Positions 21,768 to 61,348 of a stretch of DNA of 64,000 bases are shown one piece after another. Each line of letters opens with the position of its first letter. Position 1 is the stretch's first letter. Location: the NCBI RefSeq assembly GCF_011440375.1, contig NZ_JAAOIR010000003.1:186001-250000 (forward strand). The letters run 5' to 3'. This stretch comes from Halorubellus sp. JP-L1 (GTDB lineage Archaea > Halobacteriota > Halobacteria > Halobacteriales > Natrialbaceae). The position numbers and the translations under genes were made by a program. Under the pieces are notes generated by a model, which was not told the origin of the DNA, ran no database searches, and worked only from the letters and a program-made list of their open reading frames with translations.

Positions 21768-23933
21768 ATGGATATAAACGTCATCGGCGGCGGACCCGGC
21801 GGACTGTACGCGAGCCTCCTGTTGAAGAAGGAGCACCCGGACTGGGACATCACGGTCTACGAGCGCGACCCCGCGGACAACACGTACGGATGGGGGATCG
21901 TGTTCTCGGACAGCACGCTCGGGTCGCTCCGCGAGGCGGACTACAAGACCCACGAACAGATCACGGACAAGTTCGCGATCTGGAACCCGATCGACGTCCA
22001 CTACGGCGGGAAGCGCATCCGCTGTGGCGGACACACGTTCTCCGGACTGATGCGTTCGGACCTGAAGGACATCCTCCGGGAGCGCTGCGCGGAACTCGGC
22101 GTCGAGATGCACTGGGAGCATAACGTCGAGAACCCCGAGGAGTACGCCGAGGACGCGGACCTCCTCATCGGCGCTGACGGCCTCAACAGCACCGTCCGCG
22201 AGACCTACGAAGACCAGTTCAAGCCCCGCGTCAGGATGGGCGACGCGAAGTTCGCGTGGTTCGGGACGGACAAGCCGTTCGACGTGTTCACGTTCATCTT
22301 CCGGGAGAACGAACACGGCCTCTGGCGCATCCACGCGTATCCGGGTCGGAAGAGCACGTTCATCGTCGAGGCGACGGAGGAGACCTGGCAGAACGCGGGC
22401 CTGGACGAGAAGGGCAAGGAGGAGGGGCTGGCGTACTTCGAGGACCTGTTCTCGGATCACCTCGACGGGTACGAGCTCGAGTCGAAGCTCTACAGCTGGC
22501 GGAACTTCCCGATCGTGCAGAACAGGACGTGGTCGCACGACAACGTGGTGCTGATCGGGGACGCCGCGCACACCGCGCACTTCTCGGTCGGTGCGGGGAC
22601 GAAGATGGCGATGGAGGACGCGATCGCGCTCTACGAGGGCTTCGAGGAGTACGGTCCGGACGACGTCGGGGCGTCGGTGCGCTGGTTCGAGAAGGAGCGA
22701 CGGCCGCGCGTCGAGGGCATCCAAGACGCGGCGACGCAGAGTCGGCGGTACTTCGAGAACACGGAGCGGTACATGGACTTGGAGCCCGAGCAGTTCGCGT
22801 TCAACCTCCTCACCCGGAGCGGGAAGATATCCTACGACGAGCTGAAGATCCGCGATTCTGCGTACACTGACGACTACGACCGCTGGTACGCCCAGTACGC
22901 GCAGGGCGGGAACGAGAAGCGGGCGGTGGCGACGCCACCGATGTTCCAGCCGTTCACGATCGGTGACGTGACGGTCCCGAACCGTGCGGTGCTGTCGTCG
23001 AGTCCGAGTTCGGTCGGGTCGAGCGGACGGCCCGCGAGCGGCCAGACGGCGCGGTTCGCCGAACTCGGGAAGCAGGGACCGGGGCTCGTGCTGACCGAGC
23101 CCGTTGCGGTGTCGGCGCGCGGCCGCCTGCATCCGGGCTCGCCCGGTCTCTACGAGGACGGGCACGCCGACGCGTGGGCGGAGGCCGTCGCCGAAGTGAA
23201 CGAGGCGAGCGACGCGAAGACCGGCATCGAGCTGTTCCACGCCGGGCAGCGCGCGGCGACCAGGCCCCGCGAGTACGGCCTCGACCGGCCGCTCGCCGAC
23301 GAGGACTCCTGGGACATCGTTTCGGCGTCGGCGACGCAGTACACGCGCCGGAGCCAGACGCCATCGGCGATGGACGCCGACGACCTGGACGCGGTCCGCG
23401 AGCGGTTCGTCGCCGCGGCCGAGCGCGCCGACGAAGCTGGCTTCGACGTCCTGCAACTGAACCTCGCGCACGGCTACCTGCTGTCGAGCTTCCTCTCGCC
23501 GCTCACGAACGAGCGCGACGACGAGTACGGCGGCGAGGACATCGAGTCCCGGCTCGCGTACCCGCTCGAGGTACTCGACGCCGTCCAGTCAGTGTGGCCG
23601 GACGAGAAGGCGATCACGACGAAGATGCCCGCCACCGACTGGCGTCCCGGCGGGAACAACCTCGGCGACGGGTTCGCCATCGGCAGTCACCTCTCACGGA
23701 ACGGGAGCGACCTGCTGACGGTCGTCGCCGGCCAGACGACGTCGAACGACCGCCCGAAGTTCGACACGGACGTCCTCGCGCGCTACAGCGAGCAGATCCG
23801 GAACGAGCTGGACGTGCCGACGATGACGACGAACTACGTCACGTCCACGGACGACGTCAACACGCAGGTCGGTGCGGGCACTGGCGACCTCTGCCAGTGG
23901 TACCCGCCGAACGTCGACGGCGACCTCCTGTAG
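21768..23933 (+). CDS. Bifunctional FAD hydroxylase/OYE reductase, salicylyl-CoA 5-hydroxylase or anthraniloyl-CoA monooxygenase type
   Basis: A 721-residue two-domain flavoprotein. Residues 1-375 are a class A aromatic hydroxylase: GGGPGGLYASLLLKK FAD motif, DGLNSTVR, and LIGDAAHTAHFSVGAGTKMA. Residues about 385-721 are an Old Yellow Enzyme domain: ELFHAGQRAATRP, LAHGYLLSSFLSPLTNERDD, MPATDWRPGG and VAGQTTS. This order is characteristic of 2-aminobenzoyl-CoA monooxygenase/reductase and salicylyl-CoA 5-hydroxylase, which act on CoA thioesters of aromatic acids. The C terminus is somewhat short compared with bacterial relatives. The two substrates cannot be told apart by eye; RidA nearby favours the amino compound, whereas the NahE-like aldolase 13 kb away favours salicylate. 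Confidence 0.83.
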   Translation: MDINVIGGGPGGLYASLLLKKEHPDWDITVYERDPADNTYGWGIVFSDSTLGSLREADYKTHEQITDKFAIWNPIDVHYGGKRIRCGGHTFSGLMRSDLKDILRERCAELGVEMHWEHNVENPEEYAEDADLLIGADGLNSTVRETYEDQFKPRVRMGDAKFAWFGTDKPFDVFTFIFRENEHGLWRIHAYPGRKSTFIVEATEETWQNAGLDEKGKEEGLAYFEDLFSDHLDGYELESKLYSWRNFPIVQNRTWSHDNVVLIGDAAHTAHFSVGAGTKMAMEDAIALYEGFEEYGPDDVGASVRWFEKERRPRVEGIQDAATQSRRYFENTERYMDLEPEQFAFNLLTRSGKISYDELKIRDSAYTDDYDRWYAQYAQGGNEKRAVATPPMFQPFTIGDVTVPNRAVLSSSPSSVGSSGRPASGQTARFAELGKQGPGLVLTEPVAVSARGRLHPGSPGLYEDGHADAWAEAVAEVNEASDAKTGIELFHAGQRAATRPREYGLDRPLADEDSWDIVSASATQYTRRSQTPSAMDADDLDAVRERFVAAAERADEAGFDVLQLNLAHGYLLSSFLSPLTNERDDEYGGEDIESRLAYPLEVLDAVQSVWPDEKAITTKMPATDWRPGGNNLGDGFAIGSHLSRNGSDLLTVVAGQTTSNDRPKFDTDVLARYSEQIRNELDVPTMTTNYVTSTDDVNTQVGAGTGDLCQWYPPNVDGDLL

Positions 23934-24024: not shown

Positions 24025-25152
24025 TCAGTCGGCGAGGAACTCGATGGCGGCGCCCTGGCCGTAGCCGACGCACTCGGTCGCGAGCCCGCGGTCGACGCCG
24101 CGGCGGTTCATCTCGTGCAGTAGCGTCACCGGGAGTCGTGCGCCCGACGCGCCTAGCGGGTGGCCGATGGCGATGGCGCCGCCGTTGACGTTGAAGCGGT
24201 CGTCGTCGACGCCGAGTTCGCGCTGGCAGTACAGCGTCTGGCTCGCGAACGCCTCGTTCAACTCGACGAGCCCGTAGTCGTCGACGCTGGTGCCAGCCCG
24301 GTCCACGAGGCCACGGACGGCCGGGACGGGCCCGATGCCCATGATCTCGGGGTCGACGCCGACGACCTCGTGCGCGCCGACAGCGCCGAGGACGTCGAGA
24401 CCGTGGTCGTCGGCGAACGCGCGGCTCGTCACCATCACGGCGGCCGCACCGTCGCTGATCTGCGAGGCGTTCCCCGGCGTCACCGTCCCGTCCTCGGCGA
24501 ACACGGTCGGGAGCTCCGCGAGTTTCTCGGCGGTCGTCCCCGGACGCAGTCCCTCGTCTTCCGTGACGGTCTCCTCGCCCGTATCGATGGGAACGATCTC
24601 GTCCTCGAACCGGCCCTCCCTGGTCGCGTCGACGGCTCGCTGCTGGCTGCGCGCCGCGTACTCGTCCTGGGCCTCGCGCGAGACGTCGAAGCGTTCGGCG
24701 ACGGCCTCGGCGGTGTTCCCCATGCGGAACGACTCGACGTCGTACCGCTCGACGAGCGCGGGGATCTCGCTCACGTCGTTCGCGCGCTCGACGCGCGTCA
24801 TGCTCTCCACGCCACCGGCGATCACGCACTCGCGCTGGCCGGCGCGAACGGCGTCGGCGGCACTCATGATCGCTTGCGCCGAGGACGCGCACTGCCGGTC
24901 GATGGTCGACGCCGGAACCGTCTCGCCGAGGTCGCTCGTCAGCGCGACGATGCGCGCGAGGTTGTTCCCCTGCTCGCCTTCCTGCTTCACGCACCCCCAG
25001 AGGAGGTCGTCGACGTGCTCGCCCGTGAGGCCCGTCTCGGCGAGCATCGCGTCGACGAGCTGCCTCGAGAGCTCCTCGCTCCGGACGTCCGCGTACACGC
25101 CGCCCTCTTTGCCCTGCGGGGTCCGAACCGCTTGCACGACTACTGGTTCCAT
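24025..25152 (-). CDS. Thiolase (acetyl-CoA acyltransferase)
   Basis: A 375-residue thiolase. Nucleophile Cys88 lies in TIDRQCASSAQAIMSAA, the histidine loop is NVNGGAIAIGHPLGASGAR, and the C-terminal cysteine lies in LATECVGYGQGAAIEF, where most thiolases have CIGGGQG. It would cleave a 3-oxoacyl-CoA, probably the last step of ring-opened aromatic acids or fatty acids. A TATA-like GTTTACG lies about 27 bases before ATG 25152. It is divergent from the acyl-CoA dehydrogenase and convergent with the hydroxylase gene. Confidence 0.92.
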   Translation of the reverse strand: MEPVVVQAVRTPQGKEGGVYADVRSEELSRQLVDAMLAETGLTGEHVDDLLWGCVKQEGEQGNNLARIVALTSDLGETVPASTIDRQCASSAQAIMSAADAVRAGQRECVIAGGVESMTRVERANDVSEIPALVERYDVESFRMGNTAEAVAERFDVSREAQDEYAARSQQRAVDATREGRFEDEIVPIDTGEETVTEDEGLRPGTTAEKLAELPTVFAEDGTVTPGNASQISDGAAAVMVTSRAFADDHGLDVLGAVGAHEVVGVDPEIMGIGPVPAVRGLVDRAGTSVDDYGLVELNEAFASQTLYCQRELGVDDDRFNVNGGAIAIGHPLGASGARLPVTLLHEMNRRGVDRGLATECVGYGQGAAIEFLAD

Positions 25153-25302: not shown

Positions 25303-26439
25303 GTGATAACCGAATTCGAGCTGACGGCCGAACACCAGGCCCAGCGCGAGGCCGTGCGCGAGTTCGTCGAGTCGACGGTCGAACCGGTCGTCGACGAGCA
25401 CGAGACGGCGGGCGAGTTCCCGGAAGCGCTCGTCCGGCAACTCGGCGACGAGGGGTATAGCGGCGTGCCGTACCCCGAGGAGTACGGCGGCGCCGGCCTC
25501 GACTACCGTTCGTTCGCGATCACGAACGAGGAGCTCTCGCGGGGCTGGAAGCTGCTGGCGGGCGCGGTGAACGTCATCGCGTCGCTCGTCGGTTACCCGA
25601 TCTACACGGAGGGCGACGAGTGGCAGCGCGAGCAGTGGCTCCAGAAGGCCTGCACGGGCGAGTGGATCGTCTCGCTCGGGATGACCGAACCGGACGCGGG
25701 GAGCGACGCCGCCTCCATCTCGACGACCGCCGAACGCGACGGCGACGACCTCCTCATCAATGGGCACAAGGTCTGGATGACGAACGGGCACGTCGCGGAC
25801 TTCATGCTCCTCGTCACGAAGACCGAGGACGGCCTGACGCTCGTCGGCGTTCCCGAGCCCCGCGAGCGCGACGGCGTCGAGTACGTCAGGAACATCCCGT
25901 GCATGGAGGGCGACGCCGCCATCGAGAGCGAGGTGAAGTTCCACGACGTCAGGGTCCCCGCGGAGAACGTCGTCGGAACTTCGGGCAAGGGACTACGGTA
26001 CGTCCTCGAGGGCCTGGACATCGGCCGCATCGGGACGGCGGCGCAGGGCGTCGGCGTCGCGCAGGCGTCGCTCGACGCGAGCAAGGAGTTCGCGGACGAA
26101 CGCGAGCAGTTCGGGCAACCCATCCGCGAGTTCCAGGGCGTCGGGTTCAAGCTCGCGGACATGGCGATGGACGTCGAGGCGTCCCGGCTCCTCACGCTGT
26201 CGGCGGCCGACCAACGCGACCGCGGCGAACGCGTCACGCAGGAGGCGGCGATGGCGAAGGCGTACGCGACCGACGCCGCGATGGAGATCGCGACCGAGGC
26301 CGTCCAGATCCACGGCTCCCGTGGGTACTCGACGGACTACCCCGTCGAGCGACACATGCGGGTCGCGAAGGGGATGCAGATCTACGAGGGCACGAACGAG
26401 ATCAACCGCCTCGTCGTCAGCCAGCGCCTTTACGAGTGA
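25303..26439 (+). CDS. Acyl-CoA dehydrogenase
   Basis: A 378-residue FAD enzyme introducing an alpha-beta double bond into an acyl-CoA. Motifs: MTEPDAGSDAASI for FAD binding, INGHKVWMTNG, QFGQPIREFQGVGFKLADM, IHGSRGYSTDYPVERHMR, and the catalytic Glu362 in QIYEGTNEINR. It starts at GTG 25303, with a TTAAGT box about 25 bases upstream. It may serve the aromatic route or dearomatised ring acyl-CoA oxidation. Confidence 0.92.
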   Translation: MITEFELTAEHQAQREAVREFVESTVEPVVDEHETAGEFPEALVRQLGDEGYSGVPYPEEYGGAGLDYRSFAITNEELSRGWKLLAGAVNVIASLVGYPIYTEGDEWQREQWLQKACTGEWIVSLGMTEPDAGSDAASISTTAERDGDDLLINGHKVWMTNGHVADFMLLVTKTEDGLTLVGVPEPRERDGVEYVRNIPCMEGDAAIESEVKFHDVRVPAENVVGTSGKGLRYVLEGLDIGRIGTAAQGVGVAQASLDASKEFADEREQFGQPIREFQGVGFKLADMAMDVEASRLLTLSAADQRDRGERVTQEAAMAKAYATDAAMEIATEAVQIHGSRGYSTDYPVERHMRVAKGMQIYEGTNEINRLVVSQRLYE

Positions 26440-26583: not shown

Positions 26584-27867
26584 GTGAACGCGAACGATCG
26601 CTCGATCGTCTCGCTCGTGACGATCGCTCACGCCATGGTCCACACGTACGAACTGTCGATCCCGATCCTGGTGCCGATCTGGCTCGCGGAGTTCTCCGTC
26701 ATCGACGTCGGGGTCGCTCAGTTCCCCGTCAATCCGGCGACCGTCGGGACGCTGGTCGCGGTCGGGTACGGACTGTTCGGACTCGGTGCGCTGCCCAGCG
26801 GCGTCCTGGTCGACAGGGTCTCCGCTCGCTTCCTCATCACGGTCGGTCTCCTCGGCATGGGCGCGTCGTTCCTGCTCCTGTCGGTGTCGCCGTCGCCGGT
26901 CGTCATCGGCCTCGCCCTCGCCGTGTGGGGCGTCTCCGCGAGCGTCTATCACCCCTCGGGCCTGTCGCTGATCAGTCGCGGCGTCGAGAAGCGCGGCAGC
27001 GCCTTCGCCTACCACGGGATGGCGGGGAACATCGGCATCTCCCTGGGTCCGCTGGTCACGATCGTCCTCCTCCTCTTCCTCGACTGGCGCGTCGTCGTCG
27101 GCCTGTTGACGATTCCCGCGGTCGTGGCCGCCGTCTACGCGCTCCGGGTCGACATCGACGAGCGCGCCGCGGTGGTCGACGGCGGTGGCGACGCCGACGC
27201 GCACGCCGGGAGCGCCGTCTCGTCGCTCGGCGACTTCCTCTCCAGCTCGCGCGTGCTCTTCGCGAGCCTCTTCGCCGTCGTGTTCGCCGTCACGTTCTTC
27301 TCGGGGCTCTACTACCGCGGGGTCCTGACGTTCCTCCCGGAGTTGCTCCGCGACGTCCCGGCACTCGCGCCGGTCGAGTTCGGCGGTCGAACGTTCGAAC
27401 CCGGCGACTACCTCTACGTCGGACTGCTGATGGTCGGCGTCCTCGGGCAGTACGTCGCCGGGAAGCTGACGGACAGCTACCGCCCCGAGTACGGCATCAC
27501 GTTCGGGTTCGGTGCGCTGGCGGTCGTCGCCCTCCTCTTCGTCCCCGCGTCGGCGATCGGGCTGCCCGCGCTCCTCGTCGTGTCCGCACTCCTGGGCTTC
27601 TTCCTGTTCGCCGTGCAGCCGTTCTACCAGGCCACCGTCGCCGAGTTCACGCCCCCCGGCAAGCGCGGGCTGTCCTACGGGTTCACCTACCTCGGCGTGT
27701 TCGGCGTCGGCGCGCTCGGCGCCGTCATCGCGGGGACGCTCCTGACGTACTTCTCCGTCGAGCAATTGTTCCTCGTCCTCGCCGCGCTCGGCGTCGGGGC
27801 GTCAGCCCTCGGTTCCTACCTGGTGTCGGCGGGCACGGGGCGAGGCGACCCCGACGGTGCGACGTGA
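26584..27867 (+). CDS. MFS transporter, Fsr-like
   Basis: A 427-residue permease with 12 predicted helices. The early HAMVHTYELSIPILVPIWL, the motif VYHPSGLSLISR and the following AYHGMAGNIGISLGPL are typical of the fosmidomycin-resistance-like MFS branch; the last part carries LGVFGVGALGAVIAGTLL. The substrate is unknown; within a catabolic cluster, uptake or efflux of an aromatic acid is possible. The GTG start at 26584 follows an AT-rich CTTGAATACG block by about 30 bases. Confidence 0.82.
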   Translation: MNANDRSIVSLVTIAHAMVHTYELSIPILVPIWLAEFSVIDVGVAQFPVNPATVGTLVAVGYGLFGLGALPSGVLVDRVSARFLITVGLLGMGASFLLLSVSPSPVVIGLALAVWGVSASVYHPSGLSLISRGVEKRGSAFAYHGMAGNIGISLGPLVTIVLLLFLDWRVVVGLLTIPAVVAAVYALRVDIDERAAVVDGGGDADAHAGSAVSSLGDFLSSSRVLFASLFAVVFAVTFFSGLYYRGVLTFLPELLRDVPALAPVEFGGRTFEPGDYLYVGLLMVGVLGQYVAGKLTDSYRPEYGITFGFGALAVVALLFVPASAIGLPALLVVSALLGFFLFAVQPFYQATVAEFTPPGKRGLSYGFTYLGVFGVGALGAVIAGTLLTYFSVEQLFLVLAALGVGASALGSYLVSAGTGRGDPDGAT

Positions 27868-27983: not shown

Positions 27984-28973
27984 TTAGACGCCGCCTTCGC
28001 CGTCGAGCACGTCCTTGATGCCTTCCTCGATGCGGGGCGGATTCGGGAGGTAGAAGTCCTCCATCGCGAGCATCGGCATCGGGACGTCGAACCCCGTGAT
28101 GCGGCCGACGGGCGCCTCGAGGTGCATGAGCGCGCCCTCGTTGATCGTCGCGACGAGCTCCGCCGCGAACCCGCCCGTCTTCGCGGCCTCGTGGACGATC
28201 GCGGCGCGCCCGGTCTTGCGGACGGACTCGAGGACGGTCTCCCTGTCGAGCGGCGAGATCGAGCGGAGGTCGATCACCTCGATGGAGACGTCGCGCTCCT
28301 CCTCGAGGGTCTCGGCGGCCGCGAGCGTGTCCGGCATCGTCGCGCCCCACGAGATCACCGTAATGTCCTCGCCCTCGGTGCGGACCGCGGCCTCGCCGAT
28401 CGGGACGGTGTGTTCGCCCTCCGGCACCTCGTCGCGGAACGACCGATAGAGGCGCTTCGGTTCGAGGACGAGTACCGGATCGGGGTCCCTGATCGCGCTC
28501 AGGAGGAGTCCCTTCGTGTCCGCGGGCGTACTGGGGACGACGACCTGGAGCCCGGGAATGTGTGCGTACGCGGCCTCCAGGCTCTCGGAGTGGTGTTCGA
28601 GCGCGCGAACGCCGCCGCCGTAGGGCGCTCGGATCACCATCGGCGCGGTCAGCTCGCCGCGCGTCCGCCAGCGGATCCGGCTCGCCATCGACACGAGCTG
28701 GTTGAACGCCGGCGGGATGAACCCCGAGAACTGGATCTCGGCGACCGGCCGGTACCCACGCATCGCCAGCCCGACCGCGGACCCGGCGATCGCGATCTCC
28801 GTGATCGGCGTGTCCAGCACGCGCTCGCCGCCGTACTCGTCCTTGAGGCCCTCGGTCGCGCGGAAGACGCCGCCCTGCTGGGCGACGTCCTCGCCGTACA
28901 CCACGACGTGGTCGTCGTCGGCCATCGCGACGCGCAGCGCGTCGTTGACGGCCTCGACGAGAGTTGCGTTCAT
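27984..28973 (-). CDS. 2-oxoacid dehydrogenase E1 component, beta subunit
   Basis: A 329-residue transketolase-like protein: YGEDVAQQGGVFRATEGLKD, LDTPITEIAIAGSAVGLAMR, GYRPVAEIQFSGFIPPAFNQ, and SESLEAAYAHIPGLQVVVPS, ending in a typical C-terminal domain with VIDLRSISPLDRETVL. With the alpha subunit it decarboxylates branched-chain or aromatic 2-oxoacids using thiamine diphosphate. Start at ATG 28973, seven bases after the alpha subunit. E2 and E3 genes are not in the window. Confidence 0.92.
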   Translation of the reverse strand: MNATLVEAVNDALRVAMADDDHVVVYGEDVAQQGGVFRATEGLKDEYGGERVLDTPITEIAIAGSAVGLAMRGYRPVAEIQFSGFIPPAFNQLVSMASRIRWRTRGELTAPMVIRAPYGGGVRALEHHSESLEAAYAHIPGLQVVVPSTPADTKGLLLSAIRDPDPVLVLEPKRLYRSFRDEVPEGEHTVPIGEAAVRTEGEDITVISWGATMPDTLAAAETLEEERDVSIEVIDLRSISPLDRETVLESVRKTGRAAIVHEAAKTGGFAAELVATINEGALMHLEAPVGRITGFDVPMPMLAMEDFYLPNPPRIEEGIKDVLDGEGGV

Positions 28974-28980
28974 GACGCGA

Positions 28981-30156
28981 TCACCCCTTGGGCCGGTGCT
29001 CGATGTAGTCGTAGGCGTCCGGTCGCGCCTCCAGGAACGACTCGAAGTCCTTGAGCTGGCGCTCGAGCTCCGGCGGCAGGTCGTCGTAGAGGTACTCGAA
29101 CATCTCCGAGACGTCCCGCTTCTCGAAGGCGTCCGCCGCCGCCTTCGCCTCGTCGAACTGCTCGTTCGCTTCCTCGCGGATCGCGGCCGGGTCGATGTCG
29201 TCCCAGACGCCGCGCTGCTGGAGGAACGACTCGAACCGACCAACGGGCTCTCGGTCCTCCCACCAGTCGACTTCCGCCTGGTCCCGGTAGCGCGACGGGT
29301 CGTCGTTCGTCGTGTGCGCGTCCAGGCGGTACGTGACGGCCTCTACGATGGTCGGGTTCCCGTCGGCGACGTGCTCGCGCGCCGTCTTCACGGCGTCGTA
29401 GACCGCGAGGACGTCGTTCCCGTCGACGCGGATGCCGTCGATCCCCCACGCGATCCCCTTCTGGGCGACCGACTTCGCGCGCGTCTGTTGCTCGAACGAC
29501 GCCGAGATCGAGTAGCCGTTGTTCGGACAGAACAGGAGCGCGGGCGCGTCGACGACGCTCCCGAAGTTCACGCCAGCCTGGTACTCACCCGTGCTCGGGT
29601 GGCCGTCGCCGTGGTAGAGCGCGGCGATCGCGTCGTCGTCGTCGAGCCGCATCCCCCACGCGAACCCGACGCCGACCGGGATGTGCGTCCCGATCGCGAT
29701 CGCGGGCGGGAACGTGTTGTTCGCCGCCTGCTTGTTGGCGTCCTCGACGCCGCGCCAGTAGAGCAGGAGGTCCCGCAGCGGCATCCCCTGGATGAGTTCC
29801 GCTGCGCCCTCGCGGCCGTACGGGAACAGCCAGTCGTCGTCCTCGAGCGCGAACGCGCATCCGACGACGCTCGCCTCCTGGCCGCGCACGGACGCGTACG
29901 TCCCCATCTCGCCGCGACGCTGGAGCTTCACCATCCGGTCGTCGACGACTTGCTGGAGCACCATCCAGCGATAGAGGTCGATCAGCTCCTCGTCGCCGAT
30001 GGCGGGTACCTGGCTCTCGTCGTAGCTCCCGTCCGCGTCGACGATCTGGTACCGTGGCGGCGTCCGCTCGGGTTCGCTGATCGTGCACTCGGCGAGCGAC
30101 TCGCTCGCTGCGCCGAGGTACGCCGGCCCTTCATCGAGTTGACTCACGTTCGTCAC
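28981..30156 (-). CDS. 2-oxoacid dehydrogenase E1 component, alpha subunit
   Basis: A 391-residue protein with the thiamine-diphosphate motif beginning GDGHPSTGEYQAGVNFGSV and ending FCPNNGYSIS, plus RGEMGTYASVRGQEASVVG and the phosphorylation-loop-like YRLDAHTTNDDPSRYR. It forms the E1 heterotetramer with the following beta subunit and would feed acyl-CoA production. Two GTG codons (30156 and 30147) are possible starts; the first is chosen. Divergent from the MaoC-like gene. The E1 pair is more like branched-chain 2-oxoacid dehydrogenase than pyruvate dehydrogenase. Confidence 0.9.
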   Translation of the reverse strand: MTNVSQLDEGPAYLGAASESLAECTISEPERTPPRYQIVDADGSYDESQVPAIGDEELIDLYRWMVLQQVVDDRMVKLQRRGEMGTYASVRGQEASVVGCAFALEDDDWLFPYGREGAAELIQGMPLRDLLLYWRGVEDANKQAANNTFPPAIAIGTHIPVGVGFAWGMRLDDDDAIAALYHGDGHPSTGEYQAGVNFGSVVDAPALLFCPNNGYSISASFEQQTRAKSVAQKGIAWGIDGIRVDGNDVLAVYDAVKTAREHVADGNPTIVEAVTYRLDAHTTNDDPSRYRDQAEVDWWEDREPVGRFESFLQQRGVWDDIDPAAIREEANEQFDEAKAAADAFEKRDVSEMFEYLYDDLPPELERQLKDFESFLEARPDAYDYIEHRPKG

Positions 30157-30323
30157 CCATTATCACATGGTACCAGTCTCAGTACCCTATTGAGACTTGG
30201 GGTCCCGACGTGGACGGGTCGTTCGTTCGACGGGGCGTCGTCTCGGCGGGACTCGTCCGTCGGGTCCCGGCCGAACGCGTGCGTGGATACGCTTTACTAC
30301 CCGCCTGCTCTATGGACGGTCGC

Positions 30324-30764
30324 ATGACAGGGCAGTACTACGAGGACCTGACGGTCGGCGAGACGCACGACGCCGGACCGCGGACCGTGACCGACGAGGA
30401 GATCATCGAGTTCGCCGAGAAGTACGACCCGCAATCGTTCCACGTCGACCGCGAGGCGGCGGACGCCAGCATGTTCGGCGGGCTCGCCGCGAGCGGCTGG
30501 CACACCGCATCGGTGGCGATGCGTTTGCTCGTGGACGGCTACTTCGAGGACGTCGAGATCGGTGGCGCGCTCGGCGTCGACGACCTCCGGTGGCGCAAGC
30601 CCGTGTACGCGGGCGACGAACTCAGCATCACCGTCACCGTCGCGGACAAGGAGATCTGGGACGACGACCGCGGCCGCGTCGAGTTCGACCTCGAAGCCTA
30701 CAACCAGGACGACGTCCTCGTCCACTCCCGCACCGAACTCGTGCTCGTCTTCCGCGAGGACTGA
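30324..30764 (+). CDS. MaoC-like hot-dog-fold hydratase
   Basis: A 146-residue protein with the hydratase motif YDPQSFHVDREAADASMFGG followed by LAASGWHTASVAMRLL, as in R-specific enoyl-CoA hydratases. It would hydrate an enoyl-CoA or act on a related acyl thioester. ATG 30324 is chosen because a CTTTACTA box lies about 29 bases upstream; ATG 30312 is an alternative. The chain is short and consists of a single hot dog, so it probably works as a dimer. Confidence 0.87.
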   Translation: MTGQYYEDLTVGETHDAGPRTVTDEEIIEFAEKYDPQSFHVDREAADASMFGGLAASGWHTASVAMRLLVDGYFEDVEIGGALGVDDLRWRKPVYAGDELSITVTVADKEIWDDDRGRVEFDLEAYNQDDVLVHSRTELVLVFRED

Positions 30765-45569: not shown

Positions 45570-46724
45570 TCAGTCGAAGTCGAACAGTTCGGCCGCGGTC
45601 TGCATGTCCTTGTCCCCGCGACCGGAGAGGTTGACGAGGATGGTGTCGTGCTCGCCGTCCTCGGCGAGCTGGAGTGCGCGCGCGACGCCGTGACTGGACT
45701 CGAGCGCCGGGATGATGCCCTCGGTCTCGCTGAGCTCTCGGAACGCGGCCAGCGCTTCCTCGTCGGTGACGCCGGTGTACTCGCAGCGGCCGACGGCGCG
45801 GAACATCGCGTGCTCTGGGCCGACGCCGGGGTAGTCGAGGCCGGCGGAGACCGAGTGCACGTCGACGTCGTCGTCGATGACGCGCGTCTTCATGCCGTGG
45901 ATGACGTCGTCCTTGCCCTCGGCGAGCGGGGCGGCGTGGCGCTTCGACCCCCCGCCCTCGCCGCCGCCCTCGGCGCCGTAGAAGTCGACGTCGTCGTCCC
46001 GGAACGCGTGGAACAGCCCGATGGCGTTCGAGCCGCCGCCGACGCACGCGACCGCTGCGTCCGGGAGCCCGCCGGTTCGTTCGCGGAACTGCTCGCGGGC
46101 TTCGGTGCCGATGACGCTCTGGAAGTCCCGCACCATCCGCGGGAACGGGTCGGGGCCGACGACGCTCCCGACGAGGTAGTGGGTGTCCTCGACGTTCCCC
46201 GCGAAGTCCTCCAGGGCGGCGTCGACGGCGTCCCCGAGGCCCTGGCCGCCGCGCGTGACCTCGTTGACTTCGGCGCCCATGAGGCGCATGCGGAAGACGT
46301 TCATCTTCTGGCGCTCGACGTCCTTCTTCCCCATGTAGATCTCGGTGTCGAGGTCGAACAGCGCGCCGACCATTGCGGTGGCAGTCCCGTGCTGGCCGGC
46401 GCCGGTCTCGGCGATCAGGCGCTTCTTCCCGGCTTTCTTCGCGAGTAGCGCCTGTCCGAGGCAGTTGTTGATCTTGTGTGCGCCCCCGTGGAGGAGGTCC
46501 TCTCGCTTGAGGTATATCTCGGCGTCGTACGGGTCGCTCAGGTTCGCGGCGTGATACACCGGTGTCGGTCGTCCGGCGTACTCCTCGAGGTGGCGTCGGA
46601 AGTCCGCCTGGAACGCCTCCGACTGGCCGATGTCGTCGTACGCGGCGGCGAGCTGTTCGAGCGGTTCCTCGAGCGGTTCCGGGACGTGCCGACCGCCGTA
46701 TCCCTCGAAATCACCTTGTGACAT
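45570..46724 (-). CDS. trpB: Tryptophan synthase beta chain
   Basis: A 384-residue PLP enzyme joining indole and serine. The PLP lysine is in LLHGGAHKINNCLGQALLAK, with AETGAGQHGTATAM and the phosphate loop VGGGSNAIGLF; it belongs to the TrpB1 type, which normally pairs with TrpA. Here it stands alone, with no trpA, trpC or trpD nearby. The start is set at ATG 46724 since an upstream TTG extension would cross the leaderless spacing from the TTTTATTTGG box (46761-46752). Confidence 0.93.
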   Translation of the reverse strand: MSQGDFEGYGGRHVPEPLEEPLEQLAAAYDDIGQSEAFQADFRRHLEEYAGRPTPVYHAANLSDPYDAEIYLKREDLLHGGAHKINNCLGQALLAKKAGKKRLIAETGAGQHGTATAMVGALFDLDTEIYMGKKDVERQKMNVFRMRLMGAEVNEVTRGGQGLGDAVDAALEDFAGNVEDTHYLVGSVVGPDPFPRMVRDFQSVIGTEAREQFRERTGGLPDAAVACVGGGSNAIGLFHAFRDDDVDFYGAEGGGEGGGSKRHAAPLAEGKDDVIHGMKTRVIDDDVDVHSVSAGLDYPGVGPEHAMFRAVGRCEYTGVTDEEALAAFRELSETEGIIPALESSHGVARALQLAEDGEHDTILVNLSGRGDKDMQTAAELFDFD

Positions 46725-48770: not shown

Positions 48771-48933
48771 CCGTCGTCGGCGAGTAGTCGCTGCCCTTCG
48801 TTCGTCGTCGCACAGCTGTTCGTTGCGGTCATTCCCATTGGAGACGGAACCGGCCGCTGGACCGGTCTCGTCCGCGTTTCCCGGGATGCCGAGGGGCAAA
48901 CTTAGAAGTAGGACGTTTGCGATGTGTCACTAC

Positions 48934-51036
48934 ATGACGTATGTGATTGGTGTCGACACAGGCGGGACGTTCACCGATACGGTGGTCGTCGACGAGAGCG
49001 GATCGCGGGTGACGGGGAAGGCCGAGACGACGCCCGACGACCCGACGACCGGGATCGTGGACTCGCTCACCGACGCGACCAGGGAACTCGACCGGGACCT
49101 GGCGGGGATGCTCGGCGACGCGGACGTCCTCTTCCACGGGACGACGCTCACGACGAACACCGTCCTCGAACGGACGGGGAGCGACGTCGGCCTCCTCACG
49201 ACGCAGGGACATCGGGACGCGCTCCACGTCGGCCGGACGACCACGCGAACGACCGGCCTCAGCGAGTACGAGATGCAGCACTACGCCTCCCAGAGCAAGC
49301 CCGACCCGATCGTCCCGAAGCAACGGATCAGGGAACTCGACGAGCGCATCGACTACAAGGGCGCCGAGATCGTCGAATTCGACGACGAACAGGCCCGCGA
49401 AGCCGTCCGCGACCTGGCAGCGGACGTCGACAGCCTCGCGGTGAACCTCCTGTGGAGCTTCGAGAACCCGAGCCACGAGCAGCGCGTCGCCGAGATCGTC
49501 GAGGAAGAGGCCCCCGATACCCCAACCTACCTCTCTCACGAGGTGACCGCGCGCCTCGGCGAGTACGAGCGCGGTGCGACCACCGCGGTCAACGCGTACA
49601 CCGCGCCCGTCCTCGAGGCGTACGTCGACGACCTCGTCGACGAACTCGGCGCGGCGGGCCTGGACGCCCCGATCTACCTCATGAAGAGCACGGGCGGCGC
49701 GATGCCGCTCGGGGACGCGTCGACGGAGGCCGTGGCGACCATCATGTCCGGCCCGACCGGAGGCGTCATCGGCTCGCAGTTCCTCGGCGACGAGATCGGG
49801 ACGGAGAACCTCATCTGTACGGACGTCGGCGGGACGAGCTTCGACGTCGGGCTCGTCATCGACGGCGAGATCCAGACGCGCCCGACGACCTCGGTCCACC
49901 AGTACACGCTCTACCAGCTGTCCGTCGACGTCGACTCGATCGGGAGCGGCGGCGGTTCCGTCGCGTGGATCGACGACGGCGGTGCGCTCCGCGTCGGCCC
50001 GGACTCAGCGGGCGCGGACCCGGGTCCGGCGTGCTACGGACTCGGCGGGGAGCGGCCGACCGTGACCGACGCCGACCTCCTCCTGGGCTACATCAGCCCC
50101 GAGTACTTCCTCGGTGGTCGCCGCGACCTCGACGTCGACGCCGCGGAGGCAGCGATGCGAGAGCACGTCGCCGACCCGCTCGACATGAGCGTCGAGGAGG
50201 CCGCGGCGGGCGTCTTCGAGATCGTCAACGGCGCCATGGCGGACCTGCTCCGCCAGATGACCATCGAACGCGGCCACGACCCGCGGGAGTTCTCCGTGCT
50301 CGCCTACGGCGGCGCTGGCCCGCTGCACGCGTCGTTCTACGCGGACGAGCTCGACGCCGAGTCCGTCGTCGTCCCGCTCGGCGACACCGCCTCCGTGTTC
50401 TCCGCGTTCGGCATCGCGTCCTCGGACCTCAACTGGGTCGAGGAGGTGTCGAACCCCGGCGTCGCACCGTTCGACCCCGACGATCTCGTCGGCACGTTCG
50501 ACGACCTCGAGGCGACCATCCGGGAGAGCCTCGACGAGCAGGGCGTCGACGACGCGGACGTCTCCGTGTCGCGCGAGGTCGACCTCCGGTACCAGGGCCA
50601 GGTCCACCAGGTCTCCGTCGACGTCCCGACCGGCGACCTCGCAGAGAGCGACCTCGAGGCCCTCCTCGAGCGGTGGGAATCGAAGTACGAGTCGCTGTAC
50701 GGCAGCGGGTCGACGTACGCCGACGCGGACGTCGAACTCGTCAACCAGCGCGTGCTCGCGAGCGCGTCGACGACCGACCCCAGCCTCGCCCCCGGCGACG
50801 TCGACGAACGAGCGGACGCCGACCGACAGGACGCCCAGGTCGGGACGCGCGACGTCTACTGGCCGGAGCCCTCGACGTTCGTCGAGACGGACATCTACGA
50901 CGGCGAGCGCATCGCTCCTGACATGGAGATCGCCGGCCCGGCCATCGTCCAGCTCCCCGACACCACCGTCACGATCCGACCGCACCAGCGAGCGGACGTC
51001 GACGACTACCGGAACATCGTCATCACGGAGGCCTAA
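48934..51036 (+). CDS. HyuA-type hydantoinase/oxoprolinase or ketone carboxylase subunit
   Basis: A 700-residue ATP-dependent subunit: GVDTGGTFTDTVVVDESG at the N terminus, FHGTTLTTNTVLERTG, LICTDVGGTSFDVGLVIDGE and IGSGGGSVAWID. The family includes N-methylhydantoinase, 5-oxoprolinase and acetone/acetophenone carboxylase. ATG 48934 is chosen since an AAACTTAG block about 30 bases upstream fits leaderless transcription; ATG 48922 is an alternative. HyuB follows four bases after its stop and a zinc-ribbon protein follows that, which tilts the reading toward a carboxylase-like complex. Confidence 0.88.
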   Translation: MTYVIGVDTGGTFTDTVVVDESGSRVTGKAETTPDDPTTGIVDSLTDATRELDRDLAGMLGDADVLFHGTTLTTNTVLERTGSDVGLLTTQGHRDALHVGRTTTRTTGLSEYEMQHYASQSKPDPIVPKQRIRELDERIDYKGAEIVEFDDEQAREAVRDLAADVDSLAVNLLWSFENPSHEQRVAEIVEEEAPDTPTYLSHEVTARLGEYERGATTAVNAYTAPVLEAYVDDLVDELGAAGLDAPIYLMKSTGGAMPLGDASTEAVATIMSGPTGGVIGSQFLGDEIGTENLICTDVGGTSFDVGLVIDGEIQTRPTTSVHQYTLYQLSVDVDSIGSGGGSVAWIDDGGALRVGPDSAGADPGPACYGLGGERPTVTDADLLLGYISPEYFLGGRRDLDVDAAEAAMREHVADPLDMSVEEAAAGVFEIVNGAMADLLRQMTIERGHDPREFSVLAYGGAGPLHASFYADELDAESVVVPLGDTASVFSAFGIASSDLNWVEEVSNPGVAPFDPDDLVGTFDDLEATIRESLDEQGVDDADVSVSREVDLRYQGQVHQVSVDVPTGDLAESDLEALLERWESKYESLYGSGSTYADADVELVNQRVLASASTTDPSLAPGDVDERADADRQDAQVGTRDVYWPEPSTFVETDIYDGERIAPDMEIAGPAIVQLPDTTVTIRPHQRADVDDYRNIVITEA

Positions 51037-51040
51037 AGAG

Positions 51041-52993
51041 ATGTCACAGATCCCAGGCGCGGACAAGTACACGGCGGAGGTATCGCTCGACGACGACGAG
51101 GTCGCAGACGACGTCTCGTTCCACGAGGTCCCCGAGGACTTCGAGCTCGACAAGGTGACGTTCGAGATCCTCCGGCATCGACTCGGACAGATCAACGACG
51201 AGCAGGGAACGACGCTGAAGAAGGTCAGCGGGTCGCCGATCGTCACCGACGCGTACGACTTCAACGTCACCATCGGCGACGAGCGCGGCGAGACGGTGAG
51301 CTTCGGGCCGTACGTGATGTACCACGCGAGCGTCACCGACCTCATCGTCCGGTGGATCCTCAAGCACCGCTCGGAGAACCCCGGCATCGAGGAGGGCGAC
51401 ATGTTCATCTGTAACGACCCCTGGATCGGCGCGGTTCACCAGAACGACACGGTCGTCCTCGCGCCCGTCTTCCACGAGGGCGAGATCTTCTCGTGGGTGA
51501 GCTCGACGCTTCACCAGGTCGACGTGGGCGGGAACGAGATCGGGAGCTTCGCCATCGAGGACGACGACGCGTGGGCCGAAGCCGAGCCCGTGCCGCCGAC
51601 GAAGCTCGTCGAGGGCGGCGACATGCGGGCGGACGTCGAGGACCTGTTCCTCCGGAAGTCCCGCGCGGCGCCGAACGTCGGGATGGACCTCCGCTCGCAG
51701 ATCGCGGGGAACAACGTCGCCATCGACCGCATCCACTCGCTCGTCGAGGACTACGGCGCGGACACGGTGAAGGCCGTGATGCGGGAGACGATGGACTACG
51801 CCGAGGAGAGCCTCCGGAGTCGCCTCCGGGACCTCCCCGACGGCGTCTGGCGGCACGTCGGCTACCAGGACGTCGCGAAGGCCGGCGACCGGAGCGTCTA
51901 CGAGACGAGCCTCGCCGTCGAGAAGCGCGACGACGAACTCGTCTTCAAGGTCGACGGCGACGCGCCGGCGGGCGTCATCAACACGACGTACGCCGGCCTC
52001 CGCGGCGGGCTGGTCGCGCCGATGCTCCCGATGCTCTGTCACGACATGCCGTGGGCGCTCGGCGGCATCTATCGCGCGATGGAGATCGAGACCGCCGACA
52101 ACATCATGGTGAACGCCGCCTATCCGGCCGGAACGGGGATGGCAGCGGTCGCCGGGACGTGGCATACCGTCAACGTCGCCACGCAGTGCATCTCGAAGAT
52201 GCTGTCCGCGAGCGAGGAGCAGGAGGAGCACCTCGTCGCGGGCTCGTCGGGGTCGTGGGTGACGATGAACGTCATGGGGATGAATCAGTACGACGAGTTC
52301 TTCGTCACTCAGTTCATGGACCCGATGGCCGGCGGCTGGGGCGCTCGCAGCCACTCCGACGGCATCAACACCGCGGGCATCTTCGCGGCCCCCGGCGGCG
52401 CGGCGACGAACGTCGAGTCGAACGAGCTCGCGTTCCCGATGCTCTACCTCTACCGGAAGGAGGAGACGGACTCGGCGGGCGCCGGGACGTTCCGCGGCGG
52501 CGCGACCGCGAGCATGTGCTACGTCCCCCACGACACCGAGGGCATGGAGCACCTCGGGTCGACGTTCGGCATGGCGATCCCGACCAGTCAGGGCATCAAC
52601 GGCGGTCATCCCGCGAACACGGCCCGGTACGAGATGCTGCGCGACTCGAACGTTCGGGACATCTTCGCGGACGGGTCGATTCCGAGCGACCGAACGGATG
52701 TCGACGGGGACCTCGAGGTGCTGCCGCCGAAGTACAAGACGATGCAGGGCCCCGACGACGTCTACTTCAGCATCTGGCAGGGTGGTGGCGGCTACGGCGA
52801 CCCGATCGAGCGCGAGCCCGAGCGAGTGGCGGCAGACGTCCGCCAAGAGTACGTCTCCCGCGAGGAAGCCCGGCGCACGTACGGCGTCGTCGTCGACGAC
52901 GACGGCACCGTCGACGAGGCTGCCACGGACGAGCGCCGCGAGGATATACGGAACGAGCGACTGACCGCGGAGAAGTGGGGTGAGGGCGAATGA
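51041..52993 (+). CDS. HyuB-type subunit
   Basis: A 650-residue partner of HyuA: FEILRHRLGQINDEQGTTLK, VSFGPYVMYHASVTDLIVRW, MFICNDPWIGAVHQNDTVVL, GGWGARSHSDGINTAGIF and near the end WQGGGGYGDPIEREPERVAA. The pattern is common to HyuB and the ketone carboxylases. The start at ATG 51041 follows GGAGG. It ends overlapping the next gene (ATGA). Confidence 0.88.
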   Translation: MSQIPGADKYTAEVSLDDDEVADDVSFHEVPEDFELDKVTFEILRHRLGQINDEQGTTLKKVSGSPIVTDAYDFNVTIGDERGETVSFGPYVMYHASVTDLIVRWILKHRSENPGIEEGDMFICNDPWIGAVHQNDTVVLAPVFHEGEIFSWVSSTLHQVDVGGNEIGSFAIEDDDAWAEAEPVPPTKLVEGGDMRADVEDLFLRKSRAAPNVGMDLRSQIAGNNVAIDRIHSLVEDYGADTVKAVMRETMDYAEESLRSRLRDLPDGVWRHVGYQDVAKAGDRSVYETSLAVEKRDDELVFKVDGDAPAGVINTTYAGLRGGLVAPMLPMLCHDMPWALGGIYRAMEIETADNIMVNAAYPAGTGMAAVAGTWHTVNVATQCISKMLSASEEQEEHLVAGSSGSWVTMNVMGMNQYDEFFVTQFMDPMAGGWGARSHSDGINTAGIFAAPGGAATNVESNELAFPMLYLYRKEETDSAGAGTFRGGATASMCYVPHDTEGMEHLGSTFGMAIPTSQGINGGHPANTARYEMLRDSNVRDIFADGSIPSDRTDVDGDLEVLPPKYKTMQGPDDVYFSIWQGGGGYGDPIEREPERVAADVRQEYVSREEARRTYGVVVDDDGTVDEAATDERREDIRNERLTAEKWGEGE

Positions 52994-53274
52994 GGCAGAT
53001 GGACCTCCACCTGGCAGTCGACGACGGCCGCGTCGTCTGCCGCTCGTGCGGCGAAGACGTCTGTGCAGCGGACGAGAACTACAAGCTGCACGCGCTCTGC
53101 GACCGGAAGCCGCTCACGGAAGCCGGCCCCCTCATCAACGACCCGTCTGAGTACGTCGACGACGAGATGGAGTTCCGCCAGTTCTACTGCCCCGGCTGCG
53201 GGACCTTGCTGGAGAACGAAGTGATCGAGGCCGACCACGAACCCGTCCACGACAAACAGCTCTACGAGAGCTGA
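52990..53274 (+). CDS. Zinc-ribbon small subunit, acetone carboxylase gamma-like
   Basis: A 94-residue protein with CRSCGEDVC, a further cysteine in HALCDRK, and CPGCGTLL near residue 68, forming one or two zinc sites. The tail ENEVIEADHEPVHDKQLYES is typical of acetone/acetophenone carboxylase small subunits, which accompany HyuA- and HyuB-like chains. The four-base ATGA overlap with HyuB indicates a stoichiometric complex. It is shorter than the known gamma subunits. Confidence 0.75.
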   Translation: MRQMDLHLAVDDGRVVCRSCGEDVCAADENYKLHALCDRKPLTEAGPLINDPSEYVDDEMEFRQFYCPGCGTLLENEVIEADHEPVHDKQLYES

Positions 53275-55941: not shown

Positions 55942-57606
55942 TCACTCCGTTCGCTTTCGCTCCGTCCGTTCTCGCTCGCGCTCGCGGAGCGTCGAGCGCT
56001 TGATCTTCCCCGTCTCCGTGCTCGGGAGTTCGTCCACGTACTCGACCGCTCGCGGGTACTTGTACGGCGCGACGCGCTCCTTGACGTGCTCCTGGAGCGA
56101 CTCGGTGAGGTCGTCGCTCGGGTCGTGGCCGTCGGCGAGGACGACGAACGCCTTCACGATCTTCCCCCGGACGTCGTCCGGGCTGCCGACGACCGCGCTC
56201 TGGTAGACCTCCTCGCGCTCCTGCAGGACGTCCTCGACCTCCGGGCCGGGGACGTTGTAGCCGCTCGTGATGATGAGGTCGCCGCGTCGCGACTTGTACT
56301 CGAACCGGCCGTCCTCGCGGTGGACGAAGATGTCACCTGGGCTACTCCAGCCGTCGGTGACCGTCTCGCGTTGCTTGTCGGGCCGATCCCAGTACGTGAT
56401 GCCGGTCGGGCCGCGAACCTGGAGCAGGCCCGCCTCGCCCCGCGGGAGTTCCTCGCCCGTGTCGGGGTCGACCACGCGACACTCGTAGCCCGGTACTGGG
56501 TAGCCGGTCGCGGTCGGGTCCATCTCGTCGGAGAGCCGGTGACTGATGAAGATGTGGAGCATCTCCGTCGTCCCGATCCCGTCGCTCAACTCGATCCCCA
56601 GCTGCTCTCTGGCCTTCTCGTACGTGCTCGGCGGCAGCGGCTCGCCGGCGCTGACGCCCATTCGGAGCGAGGAGAGGTCGTACACGTCGGAGAGCTGTTC
56701 CTCGCCCGCCATCATCTGGTTGTACGCCGTCGGCGGCGACGCCATCAGCGTGACGTCGTACTCGTCGATCCCCTCCAGGAGCGAGTCGGGATCCGGGTCC
56801 TGGATGATGAGCGTGCTCGCACCGAACCGGAACGGGAACGCGACGAGGAACCCGTACCCGAACGTGAACGCGAGCGGCGCGTTGCTCGTGAAGACGTCCT
56901 CGGGCCGGGGCTCGAGGCAGTAGTTCGCGTAGCCGTCGGCGATCGCGAGCATCTGTCGGTGCGTGTGGAGCGTCCCCTTCTGCTTCCCGGTGGTCCCGCT
57001 CGTGTACGCCAGGAGGACGGCGTCGTCCCGTTTGGTGTCGTGCGCGGAGAGCGAATCGTCGGCCGCCTCGGTCAGGTCGTCGTAGTCGTGCTGGTCGTGA
57101 TCGACGTCGTTCCGGCCCAGGACGACGATGTCCTCCAGGTGGTCGATGTCGCGCTCGTCCCGCGCCTCGAGGACCTCCTCGAGCAGGTCGTCGTAGACGA
57201 CCGCCGTCGTCGCCCCAGAGTCCTCGACGACGTACCCGATCTCCGACGCCCGGAGGAGCTTCATCGACGGCACCGGGACCGCGCCGATCTTCTGGGCGGC
57301 CAGCACCGAGACGACGTACTCCGGTCGGTTCGGGAACCGGACGAACACCCGTTCGCCGGGCTCGACGCCCAGGTCGAGTAGGACGTTCCCCACGCGGTTC
57401 ACGCGCCGCTGGAGGTCGGCGTACGTGATCGACTCGCCCTCGAAGTAGATCGCGACGTCGTCCCCTCGTCCCGATTCCACGTGTTTGCCGACCATCTCCA
57501 CCGCGGCGTTGAGCTCCTCCGGATAGTGCAGTTCCGGTAGCGAGTGAAAGAGATCCGGTCGGTTTGCTTCGTCTGGCAGAACCCCCTCGTCTATCTGCTC
57601 CTGCAT
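55942..57606 (-). CDS. Acyl-CoA synthetase, benzoate/2-aminobenzoate-CoA ligase type
   Basis: A 554-residue AMP-forming ligase. The ATP loop is LLAYTSGTTGKQKGTLHTHR, the adenine motif is SDGIGTTEMLHIFISH, GDIFVHREDGRFEYKSRRGD and the C-terminal STETGKIKRSTL carry the hinge and catalytic lysine. Sequence near residues 90-145 (VPSMKLLRASEIGYVVEDSG) recalls benzoate- and 2-aminobenzoate-CoA ligases. It would activate an aromatic acid to its CoA thioester for the hydroxylase in region 2. A TATA-like ATACTATTAAC lies about 28 bases before ATG 57606. The Liv-type importer is adjacent. Confidence 0.88.
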   Translation of the reverse strand: MQEQIDEGVLPDEANRPDLFHSLPELHYPEELNAAVEMVGKHVESGRGDDVAIYFEGESITYADLQRRVNRVGNVLLDLGVEPGERVFVRFPNRPEYVVSVLAAQKIGAVPVPSMKLLRASEIGYVVEDSGATTAVVYDDLLEEVLEARDERDIDHLEDIVVLGRNDVDHDQHDYDDLTEAADDSLSAHDTKRDDAVLLAYTSGTTGKQKGTLHTHRQMLAIADGYANYCLEPRPEDVFTSNAPLAFTFGYGFLVAFPFRFGASTLIIQDPDPDSLLEGIDEYDVTLMASPPTAYNQMMAGEEQLSDVYDLSSLRMGVSAGEPLPPSTYEKAREQLGIELSDGIGTTEMLHIFISHRLSDEMDPTATGYPVPGYECRVVDPDTGEELPRGEAGLLQVRGPTGITYWDRPDKQRETVTDGWSSPGDIFVHREDGRFEYKSRRGDLIITSGYNVPGPEVEDVLQEREEVYQSAVVGSPDDVRGKIVKAFVVLADGHDPSDDLTESLQEHVKERVAPYKYPRAVEYVDELPSTETGKIKRSTLRERERERTERKRTE

Positions 57607-57744
57607 GATGTTCCCATGCCCTGCCAGCGTTAATAGTATTTTGTTCACACGTACCACGACCGTCATCGATGCACCCGGGCGTGATCCAGATCCACCGCTC
57701 GACAGGACTCCATAGAGGAGCGAACGCGAGAAAGCCGTCGGCGA

Positions 57745-58791
57745 CTACGTCTCCGGGTCGCTATCGGTGTCGCTATCGCGCGACCGCAGGGACTGGACGC
57801 GGTCGCTGTCCCACGCGGCGCGAGTCTTCGGGACGATGCCCTCCCGGAAGTACACGAACAGCACGATGAGGAGACCGCCGAGGACGGCCGTCCGCCACTG
57901 GCCGGTGTCCTGGAGGAGTTCGTTGATGACGATGATCACGCCGGCGCCGAGGAACGGCCCGACGATCGTCCGCATGCCGCCGAGGACGAGCATGATCAGG
58001 ACGATGACGTCGACCGACTGGAACGAGAACATGGTCGGGAGCAGGTAGCCCTCGGACTGCGCGTACAGCGGCCCGACCAGCCCGATGATCGTCGCGGCGA
58101 CGACGCCGGCGACGACCTTGTACCTGATGACGTTGATTCCGGCGGCTTCGGACGCGATCTCGTCCTGGCGGATCGCCGTGAACGCCAGGCCGTACTTCGA
58201 GTTCCGCATCCACCAGTACCCCACGAGGACGACCGAGAGGAACACGAACAGGAGGTAGTACGTCACGAGGCGGCCGCTCACGCCGAGCGCCTCCACGACC
58301 ATCGGGAGTTCGAGACCGCTGAACGACGTCCCCGTGCTGCCGCCCGTGAGGTCTCGCGCGCCGACGAAGATCTCGGACAGCGCCATCTGGATGCTCAACG
58401 TGAGGATGGCGATGACGATGACCGTCATCCGTCGGCGAGCCGCGACGTAGCTCACGAGCAACCCGATGAATCCGGCGACGATCCCTGCGGCCGGGTAGAA
58501 CAGCCACGGCGAGACGCCGACCGTGTCGGACAGGAGCGCGGTCGAGTACGCGCCCATGCCGGCCAGCGCGCCGACGAACAGGAACAGCTGGTTCGTGTGT
58601 CCGAACACGATGTTCAACGCGAGCGCGAGCGACGCGAACACGAGCAACCGGACGAGGAGGTTCGCGAGGTACGTCACGGTCATGTCGAAGGCGAACGGCA
58701 GCACGGCGAGGAACGTCAGGATGACCGCGACCGTCTTCAATTCGCTAGCGCCGCCACGGGCGTACTCGTCGTGGGCAGTCGTGTCACTCAT
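57745..58791 (-). CDS. livM: Branched-chain-amino-acid-type ABC permease (LivM)
   Basis: A 348-residue permease with about nine helices. Typical LivM motifs are ALNIVFGHTNQLFLFVGALA (with NQ replacing the usual TGQ), FTAIRQDEIASEAAGINVIR and GGMRTIVGPFLGAGVIIVIN. Its ATG overlaps the stop of LivH. The paired transport system may carry aromatic carboxylates rather than amino acids, because a ligase lies immediately downstream on the same strand. Confidence 0.9.
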   Translation of the reverse strand: MSDTTAHDEYARGGASELKTVAVILTFLAVLPFAFDMTVTYLANLLVRLLVFASLALALNIVFGHTNQLFLFVGALAGMGAYSTALLSDTVGVSPWLFYPAAGIVAGFIGLLVSYVAARRRMTVIVIAILTLSIQMALSEIFVGARDLTGGSTGTSFSGLELPMVVEALGVSGRLVTYYLLFVFLSVVLVGYWWMRNSKYGLAFTAIRQDEIASEAAGINVIRYKVVAGVVAATIIGLVGPLYAQSEGYLLPTMFSFQSVDVIVLIMLVLGGMRTIVGPFLGAGVIIVINELLQDTGQWRTAVLGGLLIVLFVYFREGIVPKTRAAWDSDRVQSLRSRDSDTDSDPET

Positions 58792-61317: not shown

Positions 61318-61348
61318 CTGAGAATCGGACCGGAACGATACCGGGAGC

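Follow-up and report, generated by a model that had tools for sequence, protein, structure and literature searches.

In the archaeon Halorubellus sp. JP-L1, a 64,000-nucleotide stretch of DNA, referred to below as the window, appears to carry genes of an anthranilate CoA-thioester pathway in which a luciferase-like (LLM) oxidoreductase performs the ring reduction in place of the dead old-yellow-enzyme (OYE) half of a two-domain hydroxylase, a reading to which we assign a probability of about 0.6. Related bacterial pathways, based on a 2-aminobenzoyl-CoA monooxygenase/reductase (ACMR), have been described in Azoarcus evansii (PMC4539516) and in Arthrobacter Rue61a pAL1 (PMC3534580). In the bacterial enzymes, it is presumably the fused OYE half that converts the dearomatised intermediate into 2-amino-5-oxocyclohex-1-ene-carbonyl-CoA (PMC3534580; PMC4539516), and 5-hydroxyanthraniloyl-CoA is a reported by-product of bacterial ACMR under NADH limitation (PMC3534580).

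The hydroxylase gene (21768-23933, + strand), found in one copy in the genome, is a single ORF of 721 aa encoding a putative anthraniloyl-CoA 5-hydroxylase, in which residues 1 to about 380 form an FAD hydroxylase and residues 392 to about 712, within the same chain, a degenerate OYE barrel. The protein aligns with positions 1-715 of the 768 of the NCBIfam model NF006101, "bifunctional salicylyl-CoA 5-hydroxylase/oxidoreductase" (E 1.2e-240), and its score of 800.8 bits lies below the curated cut-off of 1078, which none of the 391 haloarchaeal genomes reached. The Pfam domains FAD_binding_3 and Oxidored_FMN were both recognized, and the AlphaFold model is well folded (pLDDT 90.5), its N-terminal half resembling VioD and its C-terminal half class-III OYEs. 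The FAD motifs are intact and conserved (GGGPGG at 7-12, ADG at 136-138 and GDAAH at 264-268). The ORF, the family and domain matches and the fold comparison bear out the initial annotation in describing a fusion of an FAD hydroxylase with an OYE fold; the OYE label suits the fold but does not hold at the active site, where the FMN motifs are gone. The accompanying view that this is an ordinary fusion of the bacterial type found no support, given the degenerate, pseudo-reductase character of the OYE half and a score short of the NF006101 cut-off. The database name probably spans proteins with differing substrates and some that have no working reductase.

The degeneration of the OYE half is extensive, as nearly every FMN-binding residue and the C-terminal phosphate-site segment have been lost. 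In the numbering of the class-III OYE YqjM, the bacterial homologues with an intact OYE keep P24 (11/13), M25 (12/13) and H164 (12/13), while Y28, Q102, H167, Y169 and R215 are each present in all 13; Q102, Y169, R215 and R308 are also named in the title of PDB 8x0j. In the 721-aa protein, P24-M25-C26..Y28 is replaced by S411-S412-P413..S415, Q102 by E488, H164 by N565 and R215 by K619, whereas H568 and Y570 correspond to the retained H167 and Y169. An OYE reductase domain with an intact FMN site, a feature of ACMR and of NF006101, was not found in this protein. R215 was retained in 13/13 bacteria versus 0/15 proteins of the haloarchaeal group A defined below, 0/9 of groups B and C and 0/2 of the LLM-bearing MAGs. 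H167 and Y169 are kept in 15/15 group A proteins, so that some function in the OYE pocket is possible. All haloarchaeal chains stop no more than about 16 residues past the DLC/DLV of strand 8, and the GR phosphate site and the last helices are absent from their OYE halves. The ratio of divergence between the OYE and the FAD half was 1.45 in group A, 1.75 in groups B and C and 0.83 in bacteria with an intact OYE. Truncation by a frameshift or an assembly error was considered and ruled out, because all haloarchaeal and other degenerate homologues end near the same place. In addition, short or partial OYE remnants were observed in actinobacterial FAD hydroxylases of about 500-640 aa (L078-L137), which in the loci examined often adjoin genes for AMP ligases and cupin/FAH proteins. 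Loss of the OYE half thus seems to have happened on more than one occasion.

Directly upstream of the hydroxylase lies the LLM gene (20882-21745, + strand; start set by orthologue alignment), which stops 22 bp before the hydroxylase start and encodes a probably F420H2-dependent oxidoreductase, our proposed stand-in ring reductase. This gene and a benzoate-CoA-ligase-family gene (55942-57666, - strand) extend the gene list of the initial annotation. The two-domain match was detected in 20 of the 391 genomes of the class Halobacteria, namely 10 of group A (including that of JP-L1), the outlier G389, five of group B and four of group C; among named plasmid records, those of Haladaptatus and Halomicrococcus were added to group A, while Halostagnicola falls in B and Natrinema in C. 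An LLM orthologue (E <= 1e-60) is present in 10/391 genomes of the class, exactly those with a group A hydroxylase, and is always directly upstream of it, with gaps of -4 to 28 bp in the group A loci measured. The Fisher value of this co-occurrence is 5e-20 with kinship ignored, and the number of independent events behind the association is small, since degenerate OYE and LLM occur together mostly in a single clade made up of group A and two MAGs. In the two bacterial MAGs, L064 and L065, the LLM gene directly precedes a degenerate-OYE homologue at a distance of 23-50 bp, after which come SDR and enoyl-CoA hydratase (ECH) genes, as well as RidA in L064. No LLM gene was found near the hydroxylase in groups B and C or at any intact-OYE bacterial homologue in the set. 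G389, an 82% complete MAG, carries a hydroxylase relative and neither LLM nor the kynureninase gene kynU, and in Chloroflexi L076 an LLM of 47% identity lies 5.6 kb from the hydroxylase homologue. A phylum-level search starting from genome G391 gave a strong LLM match in only 1/345 genomes, plus one weak match. The nearest LLM homologues on other plasmids are 34-44% identical, and two Streptomyces loci examined gave no clue to the reaction, their surroundings being unrelated, e.g., a type II polyketide cluster.

The phylogeny, built from the FAD domain only and without the authentic A. evansii and Streptomyces WA46 sequences, places all haloarchaeal proteins in one clade (99/94), sister to the bacterial proteins L064 and L065 (100/99). 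The neighbouring branch (82/76) contains intact-OYE bacterial enzymes from pAL1, Rhodococcus, Azospirillum, Caballeronia, Sterolibacterium and Myxococcota. Three gene patterns emerged: an intact OYE accompanied by beta-oxidation genes but by no LLM; a degenerate OYE with beta-oxidation genes and LLM; and a degenerate or short OYE with a ligase, often cupin/FAH genes, and no LLM. These patterns are expected if the LLM replaces ring reduction and if gentisate-type hydroxylation needs none. Exceptions are Cupriavidus L148, where cupin and FAH genes accompany an intact OYE, actinobacteria such as pAL1, which combine an intact OYE with a small cupin, FAH and RidA, and also G389, with its missing genes, and L076, with its distant LLM.

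The F420 biosynthesis gene cofD was found over the cut-off in all 20 two-domain haloarchaea, in both LLM-bearing MAG genomes and in L076, and judged by this gene the carriers of the LLM make F420; it is absent from 8/9 searched genomes with an intact-OYE homologue, the exception being the actinobacterium L083. The Natronosalvus cluster contains cofH and npdG, related to F420 synthesis and reduction (L138:10078-11442 and 19007-19675), the sole such case among the annotated loci.

All neighbours named in the initial annotation were recovered between 17517 and 26439: an enoyl-CoA hydratase/isomerase family gene (ECH, 17517-18290, -), an IclR-family regulator, probably of this cluster (18600-19355, +), a hydroxyacyl-CoA dehydrogenase-like SDR suited to beta-oxidation-type steps (19458-20225, +), a RidA-family enamine/imine deaminase (20304-20711, +) directly before the LLM gene, a thiolase (acetyl-CoA C-acyltransferase; 24025-25152, -; TIGR01930, 447.9 bits, over the cut-off) and an acyl-CoA dehydrogenase (ACD, 25303-26439, +). 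Further genes of the window are an MFS transporter (26584-27867, +), possibly responsible for acid uptake, and a MaoC-like hydratase (30312-30764, +); a MaoC gene likewise belongs to the compact Natronococcus and Haladaptatus clusters. The benzoate-CoA ligase family enzyme (TIGR02262, over the cut-off) is a candidate anthranilate-CoA ligase, next to which lies a branched-chain-amino-acid-type ABC transporter with two permeases, two ATPases and a substrate-binding protein (57745-62617); a transporter of this type also adjoins the hydroxylase in Natronococcus CG52. The combination of a CoA ligase with ECH, SDR, ACD and RidA genes, a feature of ACMR, is present.

The ligase and the tryptophan-related genes point to anthranilate as the substrate. 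The window ligase shares 69% identity with its counterpart in the Natronococcus cluster, 42% with that of pAL1 and 30% with those of groups B and C. In pAL1, ARUE_113p00220 has a measured anthranilate-CoA ligase activity (PMC3534580); judging by gene order, it is probably the gene that immediately precedes the hydroxylase in NC_009453. Indoleamine 2,3-dioxygenase (IDO) occurs in 18/391 genomes of the class, in 10/10 of group A versus 8/381 others, and in 0/10 of the remaining two-domain haloarchaea. Kynureninase is more widespread (175/391) and is found in 10/10 group A genomes versus 1/10 other two-domain haloarchaea; the Fisher values for both genes ignore kinship. In the genome of JP-L1, kynU, a hydrolase/esterase gene and IDO lie together on another contig, C2 (G000:C2:432850-436576), so that with the ligase 33 kb from the hydroxylase there is no single operon, which counts against the proposed reading. 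The ligase lies close to the hydroxylase in Natronococcus and Haladaptatus: cluster genes of Natronococcus CG52 are accompanied by a CoA synthetase, TrpB, an alpha/beta hydrolase, kynureninase and IDO, and the Haladaptatus salinisoli cluster comprises benzoate-CoA ligase, LLM, hydroxylase, RidA, ACD, MaoC, SDR, ECH, TrpB and kynU-hydrolase-IDO. In the 18 haloarchaeal genomes with IDO, this gene was usually seen beside kynureninase and an esterase; eight of them have no LLM-hydroxylase pair.

The archaeal CoA-thioester anthranilate route put forward in the initial annotation is thus well supported by the genome context, the ligase family, the RidA/SDR/ECH/ACD genes and the constant presence of kynureninase and IDO in group A. 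Its salicylate/gentisate alternative is disfavoured for the 721-aa protein; a conversion of salicylyl-CoA to gentisyl-CoA with no reductive step is in our view very unlikely. This reading draws on the name of NF006101 and on the related group C, whose member Natrinema salinisoli carries genes for a gentisate-dioxygenase-like protein and an FAH hydrolase, with a 2,3-dihydroxybenzoyl-adenylate-synthase-like gene next to them. This gene set probably represents a salicylyl-CoA to gentisate route, so the salicylate alternative fits that subgroup better. However, no gentisate dioxygenase is annotated beside the hydroxylase in the annotated group A loci, queries with the Natrinema cupin and FAH gave no match in the window or in group A loci, and group A has IDO, kynU, RidA and a pAL1-type ligase, which B and C mostly do not. 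Salicylate was accordingly rejected as the group A substrate, and anthraniloyl-CoA is favoured over salicylyl-CoA. In groups B and C (L054-L057, L144, L145, L049-L053) we observed the same hydroxylase family with an AMP ligase, a sodium:solute symporter and IclR, and no LLM.

In the pathway that we propose, anthranilate would derive mainly from tryptophan via IDO and kynureninase, and the benzoate-CoA-ligase-family enzyme would convert it to anthraniloyl-CoA, which the FAD half of the 721-aa protein would hydroxylate at C5. The adjacent LLM, most likely with F420H2, would then reduce the dearomatised product in place of the OYE half, the pseudo-OYE barrel being possibly retained as a scaffold or docking part. 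Finally, RidA would remove the enamine nitrogen, and ECH, SDR, ACD and thiolase would open and degrade the ring. We infer every one of these catalytic steps, as well as F420 as the LLM cofactor and a contact of the LLM with the hydroxylase. Whether an F420H2-dependent LLM has replaced the cofactor-less reductase half, giving a two-protein, F420-driven dearomatising system in haloarchaea and a few F420-making bacteria with the dead barrel as an LLM docking platform or substrate channel, is a question on which we see roughly even odds.

The fold of the LLM is consistent with more than one cofactor. Its model (pLDDT 87.4) gave VIA Z values of 26.6-26.0 for Adf, FGD and Mer and 25.9 for luciferase, so that the F420 and FMN kinds of fold are tied, and the protein scored 126.5 bits against TIGR03619, the model of F420-dependent LLM enzymes, below the curated cut-off of 166.9. 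An anthraniloyl-CoA pathway could also operate with an FMNH2/O2-dependent LLM that resembles RutA and has RidA in the part of RutC; it would then serve a later step at the ring or a C-N bond, and the ring would not be reduced. The best Foldseek matches by E-value, the FMN-dependent MsuD and SfnG, agree with this, as do the tie with luciferases and the position of RidA directly before the LLM gene. We nevertheless consider it unlikely, given that no flavin reductase was recognized among the cluster genes scanned, that RidA also accompanies bacterial homologues that have no LLM, and that the carriers make F420, one of them having cofH and npdG in the cluster. It is also conceivable that the OYE half, though altered, continues to work as a reductase with another cofactor (F420 or FAD) in a remodelled pocket, and that the LLM acts elsewhere. 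The invariance of H568 and Y570 in group A, the new invariant residues P413, P445, T688 and Y690 of its OYE half and the well-folded model speak for such remodelling, which we regard as improbable because Q102, R215 and the phosphate site are gone, the OYE half diverges faster than the FAD half and the linkage to the LLM is strict.

Compared with ACMR, the haloarchaeal system shares the two-domain combination of FAD hydroxylase and OYE fold (724 columns aligned with the pAL1 protein show 41% identity), a CoA ligase of the same subfamily and RidA, ECH, SDR and ACD genes nearby, but it is archaeal, has lost the OYE FMN site and C-terminus, has gained an LLM gene and would be fed by IDO rather than by TDO or quinaldine. 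We suggest that it works like an ACMR split over two proteins; we do not claim that it is an ACMR, because a working OYE reductase domain is a defining feature of these enzymes and none was found on testing. Salicylyl-CoA 5-hydroxylase is an enzyme of the sdg pathway of Streptomyces. It belongs to the same FAD hydroxylase family, and there are also actinobacterial relatives with degenerate or short OYE parts beside ligase, cupin and FAH genes, whereas no gentisate dioxygenase/FAH set was seen here and the cut-off of its model was missed. The LLM resembles the F420-dependent enzymes Adf, Mer and FGD in fold, and all of its carriers make F420, but the identity is only about 20% and flavin LLMs are equally close in fold. 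A full-text search of open-licence papers returned no description of an LLM/pseudo-OYE anthranilate system, and anthraniloyl-CoA and F420 appeared together in only one paper, on an unrelated subject. If the proposed pathway is true, it would take an archaeon from tryptophan through anthranilate to central metabolism, give F420 a part in the aerobic breakdown of aromatic compounds and amount to a rewiring of a pathway known from bacteria. It would also clearly illustrate how a catalytic domain can die within a fusion protein while a separate protein takes over its function.

Other genes of the window were also noted. A full-length TrpB is present in the catabolic cluster of several haloarchaea, including its compact versions (the paralogue at 45570-46724, -, in the window; L140:24751-25905; L142:20172-21344), and may feed indole and serine into the tryptophan route or perform another PLP reaction. 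A 2-oxoacid dehydrogenase E1 beta/alpha pair (27984-30156, -), near which no E2 or E3 gene was seen, also adjoins the clusters of Natronosalvus and Haladaptatus pallidirubidus. Finally, two large ORFs and a small one at 48922-53274 resemble a hydantoinase/oxoprolinase pair with an acetone-carboxylase-gamma gene, and the same combination is annotated near the cluster of Natronosalvus (L138:19799-24115).
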